Source: Actinomycetes bacterium
GTDB lineage: Bacteria; Actinomycetota; Acidimicrobiia; Acidimicrobiales; Ilumatobacteraceae
Assembly (NCBI GenBank): GCA_025360105.1
Contig: JANYCT010000072.1
Span: 1-64,000 of the forward strand
Length of the DNA stretch: 64,000 nt
Direction of reading: 5' to 3'
Shown: piece after piece, positions 34,798-40,852 of the stretch
Layout: every line of letters begins with the position of its first letter
Numbering within the stretch: the stretch's first letter is position 1
Program-made: the position numbers and the translations under genes
Notes under the pieces: model-generated
Databases searched by the model: none
Told to the model about the DNA's origin: nothing
The model's input: the letters and a program-made list of their open reading frames with translations, nothing else

Positions 34798-34816
34798 AAT
34801 CGGTACGAAACCGATT
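34798..34816. promoter_or_regulatory. Inverted repeat upstream of the TelA/VWA operon
   Basis: AATCGGT (34798-34804) and ACCGATT (34810-34816) are perfect 7-bp arms around 5 nt. A third AATCGGT half-site occurs at 34714-34720. The pattern suggests a specific regulator of the downstream stress operon. It also disfavors the TTG at 34815 as the first gene's start. Confidence 0.45.
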
Positions 34817-34838
34817 GAAATGCGGCCGACTACGAGGC

Positions 34839-35990
34839 GTGCGACGCGTGCTGACCCTCGGCCTGGCGGCCTTTTTGCTGCTCGCTGTGATCGTCGTCGT
34901 CGTGGTGTCCAACCGGGGCGGTGAGAGCAACGCCGCTGTGGTGGTGGTTCGAGGCGTGATCGGCTCGGAGAAGAAGCCGTTCTTCGACGACCAACGCGTC
35001 AAGGACGCATTTCGTAAGGCGGGCTTTGACGTCAAGGTCGACACCGCTGGGAGCCGCCAGATCGCAACCACGGTCGACCTTTCCAAATACGACTTTGCCT
35101 TCCCTGCAGGCACCCCGCAGGCACAAAAGATCAAAACCGATCGCAAGGCCAAGACCGTATACGTGCCGTTCAGCACGCCGATGGCCATTGCGTCGTTCGA
35201 GCCGATTGCGAAGATCCTCCAAAGCGCCGGGGTGGCTCAGGACAACGGAGGTTGGTGGAGCTTTGACATGGCGAAGTTCATCGACCTCGTGGGCAAGGAC
35301 ACGCGTTGGAAAGACATCGTCGGCAATACCGACTACCCCGCCAACAAGCAAGTACTGATCACCTCCACCGATGTGACGACGTCGAACTCAGCCGCTATGT
35401 ACGCCTCGATTGCCAGCTACTTGCTCAACGGCAGCAACGTTGTGGCCAGCGTCGCCCAGGCACAGGCGGTGGCACCGGCAGTTGCTCCGCTGTTCGGCCG
35501 CCAGGGCTACACCGAGCAGTCGTCGGAGGCCCCGTTCGACGACTACCTGTCGATCGGCGCCGGCAAGACGCCCATCGTCATGATCTACGAGTCACAGTTC
35601 GTCGCACGGGCTCTCGCGAAGGATGGCAGCATCAAGCCCGGCATGGTCTTGATGTACCCCACGCCAACCATCATTTCCAAGCACAGCCTCGTGCCACTCA
35701 CCCCCAATGGCGACGCGATCGGCCAACTCCTCAGCACCGATCCAACACTGCAAGGACTCGCCGTGCAGTTCGGTTTTCGCACCGCCGATCCCGACGCGTT
35801 CGCAAAGGTCGTCAAGGCCGCCGGGGTGTCGACGGCGCCAAGCTTCGTCGACGTCGTGGAGCCACCCACGATGGACAACCTCGACGCCCTGATCGACGCA
35901 ATCGCCAACGAAATGAAGTCGGCCTCGGTCACGACCGCAGCCTCAACCTCAACCAGCAACGCAACAACCAACGCAACAACACAACCTTAG
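34839..35990 (+). CDS. Membrane-anchored solute-binding-like protein of the TelA operon
   Basis: The protein (383 aa from GTG 34839) has one N-terminal membrane segment with a Val-rich core (VLTLGLAAFLLLAVIVVVVV) and a periplasmic-binding-like domain outside, with a low-complexity Ser/Thr/Asn tail. The region VYPTPTIISKHSLVPL parallels VYPTEGIVTADYPLML in the lipoprotein two genes downstream, so the two are likely paralogous type 2 solute-binding domains. This copy lacks a VWA domain. It ends 9 bp before telA. Ligand and role are unknown. Alternative starts are TTG 34815 and GTG 34848. Confidence 0.7.
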   Translation: MRRVLTLGLAAFLLLAVIVVVVVSNRGGESNAAVVVVRGVIGSEKKPFFDDQRVKDAFRKAGFDVKVDTAGSRQIATTVDLSKYDFAFPAGTPQAQKIKTDRKAKTVYVPFSTPMAIASFEPIAKILQSAGVAQDNGGWWSFDMAKFIDLVGKDTRWKDIVGNTDYPANKQVLITSTDVTTSNSAAMYASIASYLLNGSNVVASVAQAQAVAPAVAPLFGRQGYTEQSSEAPFDDYLSIGAGKTPIVMIYESQFVARALAKDGSIKPGMVLMYPTPTIISKHSLVPLTPNGDAIGQLLSTDPTLQGLAVQFGFRTADPDAFAKVVKAAGVSTAPSFVDVVEPPTMDNLDALIDAIANEMKSASVTTAASTSTSNATTNATTQP

Positions 35991-35999
35991 GAGGACCCT

Positions 36000-37223
36000 A
36001 TGAGCGACGCCCCTCTCATGCCACCAGTCGAGACCTCGACACTGGTGCTCACACCGCCGCAACCCGTCGCGTCAGTGGCGACTGCGAAAGCCGGTGGCAT
36101 GGTGCCGCTCGACCAGGCCGCCCTGCCCGGGCTCGATCAGAAAGTCGATGACTACGTCACCAGCATCATCTCGCTCGACCCGCACTCGCCGGCCTTCGGA
36201 GCCAAGACCGACGACATCCGCACAATGGGCGACGGCGACATTCAGGCGGCCGCCGAGACGAGCAACCGCTTGCTGCAGGCGCCGATGCGAGCGATGTCGA
36301 AAGGTGACTTCGCCGAGGGATCGAATGTGTCGAAATCGCTGCTCGCACTGCGTCGCACCATTGAAGATCTTGACCCAGCGCAGGCCGTTGGCGTCAAGAA
36401 GCTGCTCGGGCTCGTGCCCTTCGGCGACAAGCTGCAGGACTATTTCCGCAAGTACGAAAATTCGCAGAGCCAGCTCGACGGCATTCTTCGCTCGCTCTAT
36501 AGCGGTCAGGACGAACTCCGCAAGGACAACGCCTCGCTCGAGCAGGAAAAGGCCCATTTGTGGGAGACGATGCAGCGCCTCGCGCAGTACATCTACATCG
36601 CCGAGCACCTCGACGCGACGCTGGCCGCAAAGATCGAGGCGATGCAGGCGTCCGATCCTGACAAGGCCAAGGCGTTGCAGCAAGACGTGTTGTTCTACGT
36701 GCGCCAAAAGCACCAGGATCTTCTCACGCAGCTCGCTGTGAGTATCCAGGGTTACCTTGCGATTGACCTCGTTCGTAAGAACAACCTCGAACTCGTCAAG
36801 GGCGTCGATCGGGCGACCACGACGACGGTATCGGCGCTGCGCACTGCGGTGATCGTCGCTCAGGCGCTTGCCAACCAACGACTGGTACTCGACCAGATCA
36901 ACGCGCTCAATACAACGACATCGAACATGATCCAATCGACCTCTGAACTGTTGGCCACCCAGACCGTGGCGATCAACAAGCAGGCGGCCGATTCCACGAT
37001 TGGTATCGACAAGCTGCAGGCCGCCTTCGCCAACGTGTATCAGGCCATGGACGCGATCGACACGTTCAAATTGCAGGCGCTCGACTCGATGAGCCAGACG
37101 ATCTCCACGTTGCAGACCGAGATCGACAAATCGCAGCAGTACGTGAGCCGCGTTCGTCAGGCCGATCAGCGATCATCATCCGAGACCGGCCCGCTCGACC
37201 TCGGGAGCGGAGGCACTCGGTGA
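36000..37223 (+). CDS. TelA-family toxic anion resistance protein
   Basis: The 407-aa protein is largely helical with the TelA pattern (LLGLVPFGDKLQDYFRKYENSQ, DILRSL-type DGILRSLYSGQDELRKDN, later LDQINALNTTTSNMIQSTSELL). TelA proteins are linked to tellurite and envelope-stress resistance, but their mechanism is not established. A strong AGGAGG lies 6 nt before the ATG, unlike many genes here that look leaderless. It sits between two solute-binding-like genes and overlaps the lipoprotein gene by 4 bp (GTGA). Confidence 0.9.
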   Translation: MSDAPLMPPVETSTLVLTPPQPVASVATAKAGGMVPLDQAALPGLDQKVDDYVTSIISLDPHSPAFGAKTDDIRTMGDGDIQAAAETSNRLLQAPMRAMSKGDFAEGSNVSKSLLALRRTIEDLDPAQAVGVKKLLGLVPFGDKLQDYFRKYENSQSQLDGILRSLYSGQDELRKDNASLEQEKAHLWETMQRLAQYIYIAEHLDATLAAKIEAMQASDPDKAKALQQDVLFYVRQKHQDLLTQLAVSIQGYLAIDLVRKNNLELVKGVDRATTTTVSALRTAVIVAQALANQRLVLDQINALNTTTSNMIQSTSELLATQTVAINKQAADSTIGIDKLQAAFANVYQAMDAIDTFKLQALDSMSQTISTLQTEIDKSQQYVSRVRQADQRSSSETGPLDLGSGGTR

Positions 37224-38812
37224 GACGTCTCGTCGGCCCGCTGTGGGTCGCGATCGTGGTCGTCGTGGCCGCTGCCGGGTGTACCTCGAGTCCCAGCGGC
37301 ACCTCACCGAACGCGACGTTCAAGAACGGGCCGGCCACGCTCAATCTCTTGGCCGGCAGCGAGCTGAAGGACATGCTGCCCATCCTCAACGACGCCCGCA
37401 AGGCCACCGGAGTGAGCGTGAACCTGACCTACGTCGGCAGCCTCGATGGAGCCGAACAGATCGCAGCCGGAAGCACAGCCGACGCCGCATGGTTCGGCAG
37501 TGACAAGTACATCGGTCTTGCCGGCGCAAGTACCAAGATCCTCGCCCGCGAGAAGATTGCGCTCAGCCCTGTCGTGCTCGGCGTGCGCGCAGACGTAGCC
37601 CAGCAACTTGGATGGTCGTCTGGCAAGGCATCGTGGAAGGACATCGTCGCCGCAGTCGACGCGGGCAAGCTCACTTTCGCGATGACGAACCCGACAGTGT
37701 CGAACTCGGGGTTCAGCGCGCTCGTCAGTGTGGCCAGCGCATTGGCGGGCGGCGAGGCGCTGTCAGCCAACACTATTGACAGCGTAGGTCTCAAGAAGTT
37801 CCTCTCCGGCAATCAACTCACGGCCGGATCCAGCGGCTTCCTCGTCGACGCGTTCGTTGCTGCACAGGATCGCATTCCGGCGATGGTGAACTACGAGAGC
37901 GTGCTCGTCAGCCTCAACGAATCGGGGCGGCTGAAGAGCAAGCTGATGCTCGTGTACCCCACCGAGGGCATCGTCACGGCCGACTATCCGCTCATGCTGC
38001 TCAATTCCGACAAGCGCGAGGCGTACGACAAACTCACCGCATACCTCACCCGGCCCGACGTGCAGTCCGCGGTGCAACGACTGACCGCGCGCCGCGCCGT
38101 CGCGCCAGGTGTGGCCGCCGACCCACGGCTACCGACGTCGTTGCTCGTCGAAGCCAGCTTCCCGGCCAACATCGAGGTCACCCGGCTGCTGCTCGATCAG
38201 TACCAGAGCGAATTGCGCAGGCCCGCGAACACTGTCTACGTACTCGACACCTCGGGCTCGATGGGGGCGCCGGGTCGGCTTGATGCCATGCAGGCCGCGA
38301 TGAAGGGCCTCGCCGGCGCCGACGATTCGCTTTCGGGCACATTCACCCGATTCTCTCCGCGAGAGAACGTGACGGTGGTGTCGTTCGCCACCGATGTCAA
38401 AGACGTGCAGAGTTGGAAGATCACCTCGTCGGACCCGAACTCACCCGAACTCACCGATCTCCGCAGTCACATCGATGGGCTCACAGCAGACGGCAGAACA
38501 GCGATCTACTCAGCCCTCAACCGAGGCTACGATGCCGCGCTCGAGGCGGCCAAGGCTGATCCGCAGGCTGCTACGAGCATCGTGTTGATGACCGACGGCG
38601 AGAACAACGAAGGCATCCAGCCGAGTGAGTTCATCAACCGGATGACCAACCGACCCGGCAGCGAAAAGGACATCCGGATCTTCACCATTCGCTTTGGCGA
38701 AGCCAACCCCGCCGAACTCCAACAGATCGCCGACATCACCGGTGGAAAGGTGTTCGACGGCCGCAGCGGGTCGCTCAGTCAGGTCTTCAAGGAGATTCGT
38801 GGCTATCAGTGA
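37220..38812 (+). CDS. Solute-binding plus VWA-domain lipoprotein
   Basis: The 530-aa protein starts at GTG and has a lipobox (VVVAAAGC) for membrane anchoring outside the cell. Residues about 35-330 form a type 2 solute-binding-like domain (LNLLAGSELKDMLP at the start). Residues from about 338 form a von Willebrand A domain with a complete MIDAS set: DTSGSMG at 343, a Thr in the DGRTAIYSAL loop and TDGENNEG. VWA domains bind partners through a metal ion, often in AAA+ assemblies. It is translationally coupled to telA, and its end overlaps the XpaC-like gene. Confidence 0.88.
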   Translation: MRRLVGPLWVAIVVVVAAAGCTSSPSGTSPNATFKNGPATLNLLAGSELKDMLPILNDARKATGVSVNLTYVGSLDGAEQIAAGSTADAAWFGSDKYIGLAGASTKILAREKIALSPVVLGVRADVAQQLGWSSGKASWKDIVAAVDAGKLTFAMTNPTVSNSGFSALVSVASALAGGEALSANTIDSVGLKKFLSGNQLTAGSSGFLVDAFVAAQDRIPAMVNYESVLVSLNESGRLKSKLMLVYPTEGIVTADYPLMLLNSDKREAYDKLTAYLTRPDVQSAVQRLTARRAVAPGVAADPRLPTSLLVEASFPANIEVTRLLLDQYQSELRRPANTVYVLDTSGSMGAPGRLDAMQAAMKGLAGADDSLSGTFTRFSPRENVTVVSFATDVKDVQSWKITSSDPNSPELTDLRSHIDGLTADGRTAIYSALNRGYDAALEAAKADPQAATSIVLMTDGENNEGIQPSEFINRMTNRPGSEKDIRIFTIRFGEANPAELQQIADITGGKVFDGRSGSLSQVFKEIRGYQ

Positions 38813-39497
38813 TGGCGGCGGCACAAGGGCGGGCAAGCGCGGCGATTCGCCAAGCGGTTACCTGTCCTCAAACAAGAACCTTGCAGGCATGGCACTCGCC
38901 GCCATTGGGCCGGTGCTCGCCATCGCAGGCGCAGTAGCGGCCCCTGTCGGACTTGCGATCGCCGTACCCCTTTACGCGGTCGGCGCCCTCGTCGCTCGGA
39001 ACCATCGCGCCGCCGGCAGCCTCGTGATCGCAGGCGTCGACGGAAAGAACGTGCGCGAGGAACTTGACGACGTCGAGCGCGACGTGCGGGGCAAGGTCGA
39101 CTCGTCGGTCGAGCAGCGCGTGCACCGCATCGCAAACACCATCCGCGAGACGTTGCCGCGAGCCGATGCACTCGGGCCGGGAAGCGTTCAGGCGCACACC
39201 CTCGTGCAGACGGCCACTGACTACCTGCCCGAGGCGCTCGGCACGTATCTCAAGCTGCCCCGTTCATACGCCGAACATCAGACCGTGAGCGATGGCAAGA
39301 CGCCGTTACAGCTGCTCTGCGAACAACTCGACCTGTTGGCGGCCAAGATGGACGAAGTGTTCACTGCTGTGTGTCAGTCCGACGTCGACGCGCTCGTGTC
39401 CCACGGACGGTTTCTCCAGGACAAGTTCGCCGCTGGGTCCCTCGATCTCGGTCGCGGGCCCGGTGATGGCCGAGTGATCAATCCGCCAGCGCCATGA
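38799..39497 (+). CDS. XpaC-like membrane protein of the TelA operon
   Basis: The 232-aa protein has an N-terminal hydrophobic hairpin (LAGMALAAIGPVLAIAGAVA, then PVGLAIAVPLYAVGALVA) and a helical cytoplasmic part ending in EVFTAVCQSDVDALVSHGRF. The layout resembles XpaC, a common partner of TelA, but the match is weak. I choose GTG 38799 because AAGGAG lies 4 nt upstream, inside the preceding gene. It overlaps the VWA gene by 14 bp and the AAA+ gene by 4 bp. Confidence 0.6.
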   Translation: MAISDGGGTRAGKRGDSPSGYLSSNKNLAGMALAAIGPVLAIAGAVAAPVGLAIAVPLYAVGALVARNHRAAGSLVIAGVDGKNVREELDDVERDVRGKVDSSVEQRVHRIANTIRETLPRADALGPGSVQAHTLVQTATDYLPEALGTYLKLPRSYAEHQTVSDGKTPLQLLCEQLDLLAAKMDEVFTAVCQSDVDALVSHGRFLQDKFAAGSLDLGRGPGDGRVINPPAP

Positions 39498-40852
39498 ACC
39501 CAGACGCCCTCATCCAAGCGCTTGACGCACTTCGAGCCGTCGGTGCACTCGCGGGTCTGAGCGCCGTCGACGTCGAGGACGAAGCCGTCGCGTTCGTCGC
39601 TGCCATCAACGCCGACGTGCGAGGTGCCCCGGCGCAGTGGGCCACGGTGTTCGCCCGACCGGAAGCATCGTTCGGCGCCGCGGCCGACAGGGGCCGCACA
39701 TGGCGTGACCACCCAACGCCGCTCCTCGAACGACTCGTGACGGCGGCTTCGGCCCATGCCCGTCCCTACGCAGCAGCACTCGTCGATGTGGCTTCGGCTG
39801 GCTACGAGCTGGGCGAACCGAACCTGGCTGCGCTCGGCGTGGCCGGGGTTGCGGCGGCCGCACAACGACGCGTGGTCGGCGGGGTGACGATGGACTCGCG
39901 CGGCACCTCACCCGTGTCAGCACCCTCGTCCGCGGAGCCCGGCTCGCCCTTGGAACAACCCACGACGGCGACGAGGGCCACCACGACGTCGCCGACCCCC
40001 GCGCCGCCAAGCGCTGTGCCCGAGAAGCCGGCGCCGACATTGGATGAGCTGCTCGACGAACTCGACGAACTCATCGGGCTCCACACGGTGAAGACCGAGG
40101 TGCGCCGCCAGACCGAACTGTTGCGCATCGAAACCAAACGCACGGCGAAAGGTTTGAAGATCCCCGACGTCACGCGCCACCTCGTGTTCGTCGGCAACCC
40201 TGGCACGGGCAAGTCCACCGTGGCACGGCTCGTCGGTGGCATCTACCGAGCGCTCGGCCTCCTCACCGGCGGCCAGGTGGTGGAGACCGACCGTTCGGGT
40301 CTGGTGGCCGGCTATCTCGGTCAGACAGCGGAGAAGACCTCGGCGGTTCTCACAAAGTCCTACGGCGGGTTGCTGTTCATCGACGAGGCATACGCGCTCG
40401 TCGGAGACCAATACGGCGACGAAGCCATTGCCACGTTGGTGAAGGCCATGGAGGATCACCGCGATCAGCTCGTGGTCATCGTCGCGGGCTACCCGGCGCC
40501 GATGCAACAGCTCATCAACGCCAACCCGGGCCTCGCGAGCCGCTTTCATCTCACGATTGAGTTCGAGGACTACAGCGACGACGAGCTCGTCGCGATCTTC
40601 GAGCTCCAATGCCGCAAGAGCGACTTCACGCCCGCCGAGGGATGCATCACCTCGTTGCGCCTACAGCTCAGCGGCACGTCGCGCGGCGATGGTTTCGGCA
40701 ACGCCCGCTTCATCCGTAATACGTTCGAGGCCGCGTTGGTACGTCAGGCATGGCGACTGCGCGACATCGTCGACCCAACGGTGGACCAGCTACGCGAACT
40801 GCGCGCCGAGGATCTCGTCGACACAGACGAACCTGTGGTTCCGCCGACCTGA
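39494..40852 (+). CDS. CbbX/CfxQ-type AAA+ ATPase
   Basis: The 452-aa protein has an N-terminal helical region of about 130 residues, a Pro/Thr/Ala-rich linker, and a C-terminal AAA+ module. That module has Walker A GNPGTGKS near 235, pore-like SGLVAGYLGQTAEKT, Walker B LLFIDEAYAL and a sensor region RFHLTIEFEDYSDDELVAIF. It matches the CbbX/CfxQ group that remodels protein complexes. In this operon it is the likely motor working with the VWA lipoprotein and TelA. No Rubisco genes are nearby, so a CbbX role is unlikely. Confidence 0.85.
   Translation: MNPDALIQALDALRAVGALAGLSAVDVEDEAVAFVAAINADVRGAPAQWATVFARPEASFGAAADRGRTWRDHPTPLLERLVTAASAHARPYAAALVDVASAGYELGEPNLAALGVAGVAAAAQRRVVGGVTMDSRGTSPVSAPSSAEPGSPLEQPTTATRATTTSPTPAPPSAVPEKPAPTLDELLDELDELIGLHTVKTEVRRQTELLRIETKRTAKGLKIPDVTRHLVFVGNPGTGKSTVARLVGGIYRALGLLTGGQVVETDRSGLVAGYLGQTAEKTSAVLTKSYGGLLFIDEAYALVGDQYGDEAIATLVKAMEDHRDQLVVIVAGYPAPMQQLINANPGLASRFHLTIEFEDYSDDELVAIFELQCRKSDFTPAEGCITSLRLQLSGTSRGDGFGNARFIRNTFEAALVRQAWRLRDIVDPTVDQLRELRAEDLVDTDEPVVPPT

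Follow-up and report, generated by a model that had tools for sequence, protein, structure and literature searches.

A tightly packed telA operon with a solute-binding pair, a probable XpaC-like gene and an AAA+ ATPase gene: candidate parts of an envelope-spanning sensing or stress-response complex

The window analysed here, a stretch of 64,000 nucleotides from an actinobacterium of the Ilumatobacteraceae (GenBank assembly GCA_025360105.1, contig JANYCT010000072.1, positions 1 to 64,000), carries five consecutive genes around a telA gene, in a genome that is about 97% complete. All five open reading frames lie on the same strand and are called g1 to g5:

g1, 34815 (TTG) or 34839 (GTG) to 35990, forward strand: membrane-anchored solute-binding-protein (SBP) domain
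g2 (telA), 36000-37223, forward strand: PF05816; C-terminal tail with PLDLG
g3, 37220-38812, forward strand: predicted lipoprotein with SBP_bac_11 (residues 41-286) and VWA (339-518), the residues of its metal ion-dependent adhesion site (MIDAS) in place
g4, 38799-39497, forward strand: probable XpaC-like protein, a hydrophobic hairpin and a helical bundle; tail with SLDLG
g5, 39494-40852, forward strand: AAA+ ATPase, CbbX/SpoVK/EccA class

The five genes are a real, conserved and tightly packed operon. The gaps from g1 to g5 are +9, -4, -14 and -4 bp, matching the 9 bp to -14 bp given in the original prediction, which was made from the letters of this DNA; the position at which it began the operon, 34798, is not a start codon, and g1 starts at one of the two codons listed. 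Scans for promoters and terminators gave no signal above chance. A known anti-phage defence system was rejected as an identity, the PADLOC matches being weak and unspecific (IetA for g5 at 4.8e-05, LeoBC for g4 at 0.0017; g1, g2 and g3 without any match at E 1).

The TelA family claims g2 at 1.4e-92 (310.8 bits against a cut-off of 30), and this is the only TelA match found in the window genome. Two Pfam families are found in g3, SBP_bac_11 (5.8e-18, 65.9 bits against a cut-off of 25) and VWA (2.8e-15). An alignment of 21 g3 rows, made without the near-copy L073 and the far-diverged L065, L066, L076 and L077, conserves the lipobox Cys21, the MIDAS residues D343, S345, S347, T427 and D459, and an S-[ND]-[ST]-G motif in every row. 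With the lipobox cysteine and all five MIDAS residues kept, the prediction for g3 is a lipoprotein that faces outwards and has a functional metal site.

The g1 protein has a single N-terminal hydrophobic anchor and no lipobox cysteine, and alone it matches no Pfam family; two of its four scanned relatives match SBP_bac_11, both below the cut-off. The g1 family aligns to the SBP part of the g3 family with an hhalign probability of 98.8% (E 4e-17, 315 columns), and the AlphaFold2 model of g1 (mean pLDDT 84.1) adopts a binding-protein fold whose nearest PDB fold is the sulfate-binding protein SubI (1.5e-7). Membership among the solute-binding proteins thus comes to g3 by family and to g1 by hhalign and fold, not by Pfam. 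Profile comparison and predicted structure make g1 a paralogue of the binding domain in g3, as the original prediction had it, and the two did not prove unrelated; its picture of g1 as membrane-anchored and solute-binding-like agrees with the anchor and the fold. An SNSA motif is kept in 12 of 12 g1 rows. ModA and sugar, thiamin, iron and other binding proteins score close to SubI as fold matches and, because the list mixes sulfate, molybdate, sugar, thiamin and iron binders, the ligand class is not fixed.

Pfam finds AAA (2.9e-15) and AAA_lid_6 (1.2e-14) in g5, which has Walker A, Walker B, SRF and GNAR motifs; residues 1 to about 178 match no family. Its PDB sequence matches include CbbX (2.2e-50) and EccA1 (1.4e-48), so that by sequence g5 is a CbbX/SpoVK/EccA-class AAA+ protein, about equally close to CbbX and EccA1. 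The families named earlier for telA, the SBP-VWA lipoprotein and the CbbX-type ATPase were therefore found. I rejected g5 as a CbbX Rubisco activase, as the EccA of type VII secretion and as SpoVK, since it falls below all three NCBIfam equivalog cut-offs (CbbX, 197.8 against 459.25 bits; EccA, 226 against 466.65; SpoVK, 238.5 against 422.95); furthermore, the window genome has no RuBisCO_large match, and its sole WXG100 match, at 23.4 bits, lies under the cut-off of 27.3.

The least familiar component to Pfam is g4, which has no match at E 10; no Pfam model finds its nine scanned relatives, and PF10112 (XpaC) matches neither these nine nor anything in the window genome at E 10. Its AlphaFold2 model (mean pLDDT 81.7) has helices at 25-42 and 48-70 that form a hydrophobic hairpin (pLDDT mostly 60-80), then a confident helical bundle, and the fold has no PDB match at E <= 0.001. 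Aligned to PF10112 domains from the class of genome G395, g4 reached an hhalign probability of 75% (E 2.5e-5, 127 columns), with controls from other families at E 0.11 and 0.17. In a divergent lineage (G376, G395 and, across two contigs, G493) the gene order is g3, a PF10112 gene, g1, telA, the PF10112 match being above the cut-off in G376 and G493 and below it in G395. This remote profile similarity and gene position argue that g4 is probably the XpaC-like protein originally named; the PF10112 match is missing, and the grade stays at probable because other XpaC alignments gave 58%, and 5% with a shallow alignment.

A search with six TelA sequences returned 172 confirmed places. The locus counts that follow concern the best 80, which are biased to TelAs near the window's and some of which are cut by contig ends. 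TelA occurs with g4 in 36 loci, with g4 and g5 in 31, with g1, g3 and g4 in 10, with all four partners in one, and alone in two. Both g1 and g3 are present in 11 of the 11 loci having either, which supports the gene linkage proposed earlier; the genes did not turn out to be scattered, though g5 and the SBP pair are each absent from many relatives. The arrangement goes beyond chance, since loci with the labels Actinomycetota, Deinococcota, Pseudomonadota and Bacteroidota share the order g1-telA-g3-g4, the last label belonging to one metagenome-assembled genome (MAG) whose TelA groups with proteobacterial TelAs. Kribbia and Planotetraspora are among the actinobacteria with the four-gene set. Sphaerotilus and Variovorax plasmids also hold TelA and an SBP-VWA gene in a four-gene arrangement, with g1 and g4 there by position only; that of the Variovorax plasmid (L162) lies less than 3 kb from a Wadjet JetA-type gene and a flotillin-domain gene.

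Outside the window genome, the complete set had to be pieced together. L079, one of the ten four-gene loci, ends in g4, and elsewhere in its genome a contig end carries most of g4 and a 71% identical g5; in L082, the locus with all five genes, g5 is split across two contig ends. Thus the five-gene set is present in three genomes, the window's included, and the five-gene order recurs in the two others, each split at contig ends and both labelled Acidimicrobiaceae. The genomes of the nine other SBP-bearing loci have no full-length g5, and three of them have only AAA-domain matches that start at residue 160 or later. The parts of the operon therefore recur as ordered modules: a core of TelA and g4, the SBP pair, and g5, which is confined to one clade. 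The operon is thus patchy: of the 247 genomes scanned in the window's class, 10 gave a TelA match (8 above the cut-off, the window's own included), and in the phylum sample 7 of 295 other genomes hold a full-length g3 relative (E < 1e-45). A full-length g3 is absent from all 60 genomes that are more closely related, 19 of which have weaker matches, the best at 8.6e-16.

The N-terminal part of g4 is strongly hydrophobic (average within the scanning window above 1.8) in 10 of 11 SBP-bearing loci, L123 having been mis-started by the script, and in 3 of the 31 TelA-g4-AAA loci, where L080 was mis-started too. The same is seen in Sphingomonadales, which have no SBP pair, and the pattern fits a membrane role tied to the SBP pair in part only. 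The AAA gene itself is not always found whole. In two Pseudonocardiales MAGs (L084:10774-10965 and L086:2968-3162) it has shrunk to about 64 codons in two distant pieces, with the flanking g4 and GlnX-like genes retained; in Phycicoccus elongatus Lp2 (L110:10812-13412) it matches only over about the first 107 residues, and neither a GlnX-like gene nor PknG was found after it.

What accompanies the core in AAA-bearing loci without the SBP pair? In TelA-g4-AAA loci g5 is followed by a gene some 440 codons long, which overlaps it by 4 bases in 21 of 29 readable loci. Strains of Nocardioides and Promicromonospora carry this PknG-linked kind of set. In L101 its product has four hydrophobic segments and two long loops, a topology that passages of two papers describe for GlnX (PMC9769921, PMC6069109). 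Next come a GlnH-like SBP (PF00497 in L101) and then PknG (PF16918, PF16919 and the kinase domain in L111 and L087). Among the 31 TelA-g4-AAA loci without the SBP pair, 28 have the GlnX-like gene, 24 the GlnH-like gene and 24 PknG; where 8 kb or more of sequence follows TelA (23 loci) the figures are 21, 21 and 22, and for the 49 other loci of the best 80 they are zero. The GlnX-like profile was built from 21 of the counted loci, so that its 28 of 31 partly reflects how it was made; for GlnH and PknG the query was a single sequence each. Flank genes were called by simple heuristics, and 10 of 159 flank proteins were scanned. I call the gene GlnX-like by topology and context, the comparison with corynebacterial GlnX being by description only. 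Between the GlnH-like gene and PknG sits a conserved protein of about 500 residues with no Pfam match (L111:14327-15853), which has relatives in 26 of the 31 loci.

Neither the window genome nor the two other five-gene genomes have a match to PknG_TPR or to the L101 GlnX-like protein, and the window operon was rejected as a GlnX-GlnH-PknG system on that ground. Two genomes with the four-gene set, G652 and G655, have a PknG_TPR match on another contig and no GlnX-like protein that could be found. In the loci seen, the SBP/VWA pair and the GlnX-like gene are thus mutually exclusive companions of an AAA-type TelA core. The parts consulted of three papers propose that in mycobacteria and C. glutamicum the SBP GlnH signals through GlnX to PknG (PMC6069109, PMC9769921, PMC8546545), the mycobacterial GlnH being proposed to sense amino acids (PMC6069109). 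The searched passages of PMC8546545 and PMC9769921 contain neither 'toxic anion' nor 'AAA', TelA is not mentioned in the open-access GlnX/GlnH/PknG literature searched, and none of the papers searched was seen to connect the TelA-AAA core with PknG-type operons. Nor did open-access searches find a paper that brings TelA together with XpaC and VWA or with solute binding and tellurite, one that covers three of toxic anion resistance, substrate binding, VWA domain and CbbX, or one on substrate binding combined with a VWA domain.

A second pattern accompanies the AAA gene. A [LI]D[LIV] motif lies within the last 25 residues of 28 of 33 TelAs from loci scored with g5, against a shuffled expectation of 1.5 and a rate of 10% in internal 25-mers of the same proteins. 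The motif ends 1 of 70 neighbouring genes (called by the same heuristics; all tail analyses exclude proteins cut by a contig end), 1 of 31 g5, none of 12 g3 and 1 of 16 g1 rows, a set that includes four g3 rows also caught by the g1 profile. The looser [LIV]D[LIV] occurs in 1 of 10 TelAs from SBP loci scored without g5, and that one is L079, whose genome does have g5; it occurs in none of the nine SBP loci whose genomes are without full-length g5, in 3 of 36 TelA-g4 loci, of which two belong to the AAA clade and are cut by a contig end, in neither of the two TelA-alone loci, and in neither of the two loci with the 64-codon remnant, related MAGs of one lineage. The pattern fits the tail of a motor's client, and makes the TelA tail a candidate handle for the AAA motor.

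In a bootstrap tree of 49 of 87 TelAs (without the long rows L071, L109, L159 and L162 and six near-copies, and with Sphingomonadales thinned), SBP-bearing lineages branch first, followed by a single clade with the AAA-bearing loci (99/98); another tree held 63 of the 87 rows, with Sphingomonadales thinned, and the root on Sphingomonadales is an assumption. Within the AAA-bearing clade the five-gene rows share a branch, of weak support (86/67), with six TelA-g4-AAA loci, and the three form one clade in only 12% of bootstrap trees, which is no supported clade. With weak support, then, the five-gene genomes lie near the split of SBP-bearing and AAA-bearing forms. The simplest story is that the SBP pair came first, the motor was gained, and the pair was then lost as the core joined the GlnX-PknG set.

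I give about even chances to the view that the operon encodes an envelope-spanning sensing or stress-response complex, and the best reading of its history is that the receptor part was swapped in evolution. Outside, the membrane-anchored g1 and the lipoprotein g3, with its paralogous binding domain and metal-dependent VWA, would form the receptor. In the membrane, the g4 hairpin, with the single g1 helix, would relay the signal or hold the complex in place. Inside, g4 would have TelA as its chief partner, and the AAA+ ring of g5 may remodel or recycle TelA, perhaps also g4, most likely by gripping the flexible C-terminal LDL tails. CbbX, for comparison, acts on the tail of its Rubisco client. 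Complex formation, the direction of signalling and the motor-client relation are what I infer from these data, and envelope stress as the output would be carried over by analogy with what partly seen sources say of XpaC-TelA genes in other bacteria. The sensor-to-motor link of the original prediction finds indirect support in the GlnX-, GlnH- and PknG-like genes that follow TelA-g4-AAA elsewhere.

Several observations weigh against this reading. The TelA tail pattern is confounded by descent, for AAA-bearing TelAs form one clade, and the TelA of the five-gene locus L082 is without the strict motif. The motif also ends 13 of 33 g4 proteins (shuffled 0.6; internal 25-mers 13%), a weaker signal than in TelA, and an LDL or LDI end is also present on the g4 of four SBP loci to which no g5 is linked (L118, L123, L130 and L150); two of these four genomes gave no match to g5 of any kind. 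These four-gene loci weaken g5 as an explanation of the g4 tail, and speak against a simple motor-client version. In L065 and L066, two distant class relatives, the next gene after TelA codes for a far-diverged SBP-VWA protein and g1 was not found; with L070:5586-8582 (genome G402, 9.7 Mb), a second copy of g1 and g3 with no TelA found beside it, they limit the g1/g3/TelA pairing rule to near relatives. Finally, g1 and g3 could be transport-related, given the ABC transporter genes nearby in two loci. In L071:10413-12274 (genome G356) the g1-g3-TelA genes are preceded by co-oriented genes for an ABC ATPase and an NMT1-type SBP. On the Vibrio alfacsensis plasmid pSEA2 (L163) the genes that form one run with TelA include ABC transporter genes and genes for a VWA protein, for an OmpA-domain protein annotated as a phosphate SBP and for a further protein that has a hydrophobic stretch; this run is possibly a Gram-negative split version of g3.

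The rival that survives best, and that I still consider rather unlikely, is an envelope-damage resistance module of the XpaC-TelA kind, in which membrane protection or repair falls to TelA and g4, g1 and g3 serve as scaffolds on the wall side, binding wall or metal and no signalling ligand, and g5 recycles TelA-g4. The VWA and OmpA-domain proteins beside the pSEA2 TelA, the latter with OmpA above the cut-off, would suit it, since OmpA domains bind the cell wall. So would the Firmicute XpaC-TelA neighbours, which sit in envelope-stress regulons as far as the sources, seen in part, go: xpaC-yaaN belongs to the core sigmaW regulon (PMC3498285), llmg_1115 and llmg_1116 are up in an L. lactis transcriptome (PMC3139573), xpaC is up in an E. 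faecium liaR mutant (PMC10269926), and a Listeria lmo1967 mutant is more sensitive to nisin and tellurite, as told in PMC12791056. However, g1 and g3 retain a binding-protein fold or family along with their invariant SNSA and S-[ND]-[ST]-G motifs, and signalling is what the GlnX-, GlnH- and PknG-like genes linked to the AAA-type core suggest. Oxyanion handling, with g1 and g3 binding a toxic or scarce oxyanion and TelA and g5 detoxifying or excluding it, would account for SubI and ModA among the nearest solved folds of g1 and for the name of the TelA family, toxic anion resistance; it is improbable, as sugar, thiamin and iron binders score similarly and, by family, no reductase or anion transporter is among the five genes. 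A loose neighbourhood of genes often co-inherited without a shared complex would fit the dispensability of g5 and of the SBP pair, but is very improbable beside the overlapping starts, the one order in loci of four phyla and the unbroken co-occurrence of g1 and g3.

An envelope-spanning complex with a swapped receptor would matter because the links of TelA to tellurite, nisin and envelope stress have so far had no mechanism behind them. The ordered modules, the receptor-like pair, the candidate motor and handle, and the linkage to glnX-, glnH- and pknG-like genes give it concrete, testable partners, and if the reading is right, candidate components would be added to PknG sensing in many actinobacteria. 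A bolder and distinctly tentative version makes TelA, the XpaC-like protein and the AAA motor an exchangeable core for signal output, which would have worked first with the SBP/SBP-VWA pair and later with GlnH-GlnX-PknG; the motor would act on TelA by the LDL tail, and the window operon would be a surviving intermediate with the old receptor and the motor. TelA would then be more than a resistance protein, namely a client under regulation, and toxic-anion resistance genes would be tied to nutrient sensing by PknG.

Set beside known systems, the operon resembles each in part. Anantharaman, Iyer and Aravind reportedly described Ter/TelA stress systems in 2012, with TelA in stress-related operons; none of the five window genes matches a Pfam Ter family. 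MoxR/RavA-VWA pairs, which the original prediction invoked, join a cytosolic AAA protein to a VWA protein, and here too an AAA+ gene and a VWA gene share an operon. That comparison fails, however: g5 is of another AAA class and matches no MoxR family, and the VWA domain, being on a predicted lipoprotein, lies outside and therefore cannot pair with a cytosolic AAA in that manner. With CbbX, SpoVK and EccA, g5 shares the AAA core and AAA_lid_6 and has similar PDB matches to CbbX and EccA1, but it scores under all three cut-offs, and the genome has no Rubisco and no WXG100 gene above cut-off. The GlnX-GlnH-PknG operon of actinobacteria likewise links an extracytoplasmic SBP to a cytoplasmic machine, whereas the window genome is without PknG_TPR or GlnX-like matches and its receptor would be the g1/g3 pair. 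The XpaC-TelA (YaaN) genes of Firmicutes place TelA beside a small helical protein with N-terminal hydrophobic helices, as here, and g4 may be remotely profile-similar to PF10112; PF10112 nevertheless misses g4, and the sources, as far as consulted, describe the Firmicute pair without an SBP, VWA or AAA gene. The operon is thus built from known parts in a new arrangement.

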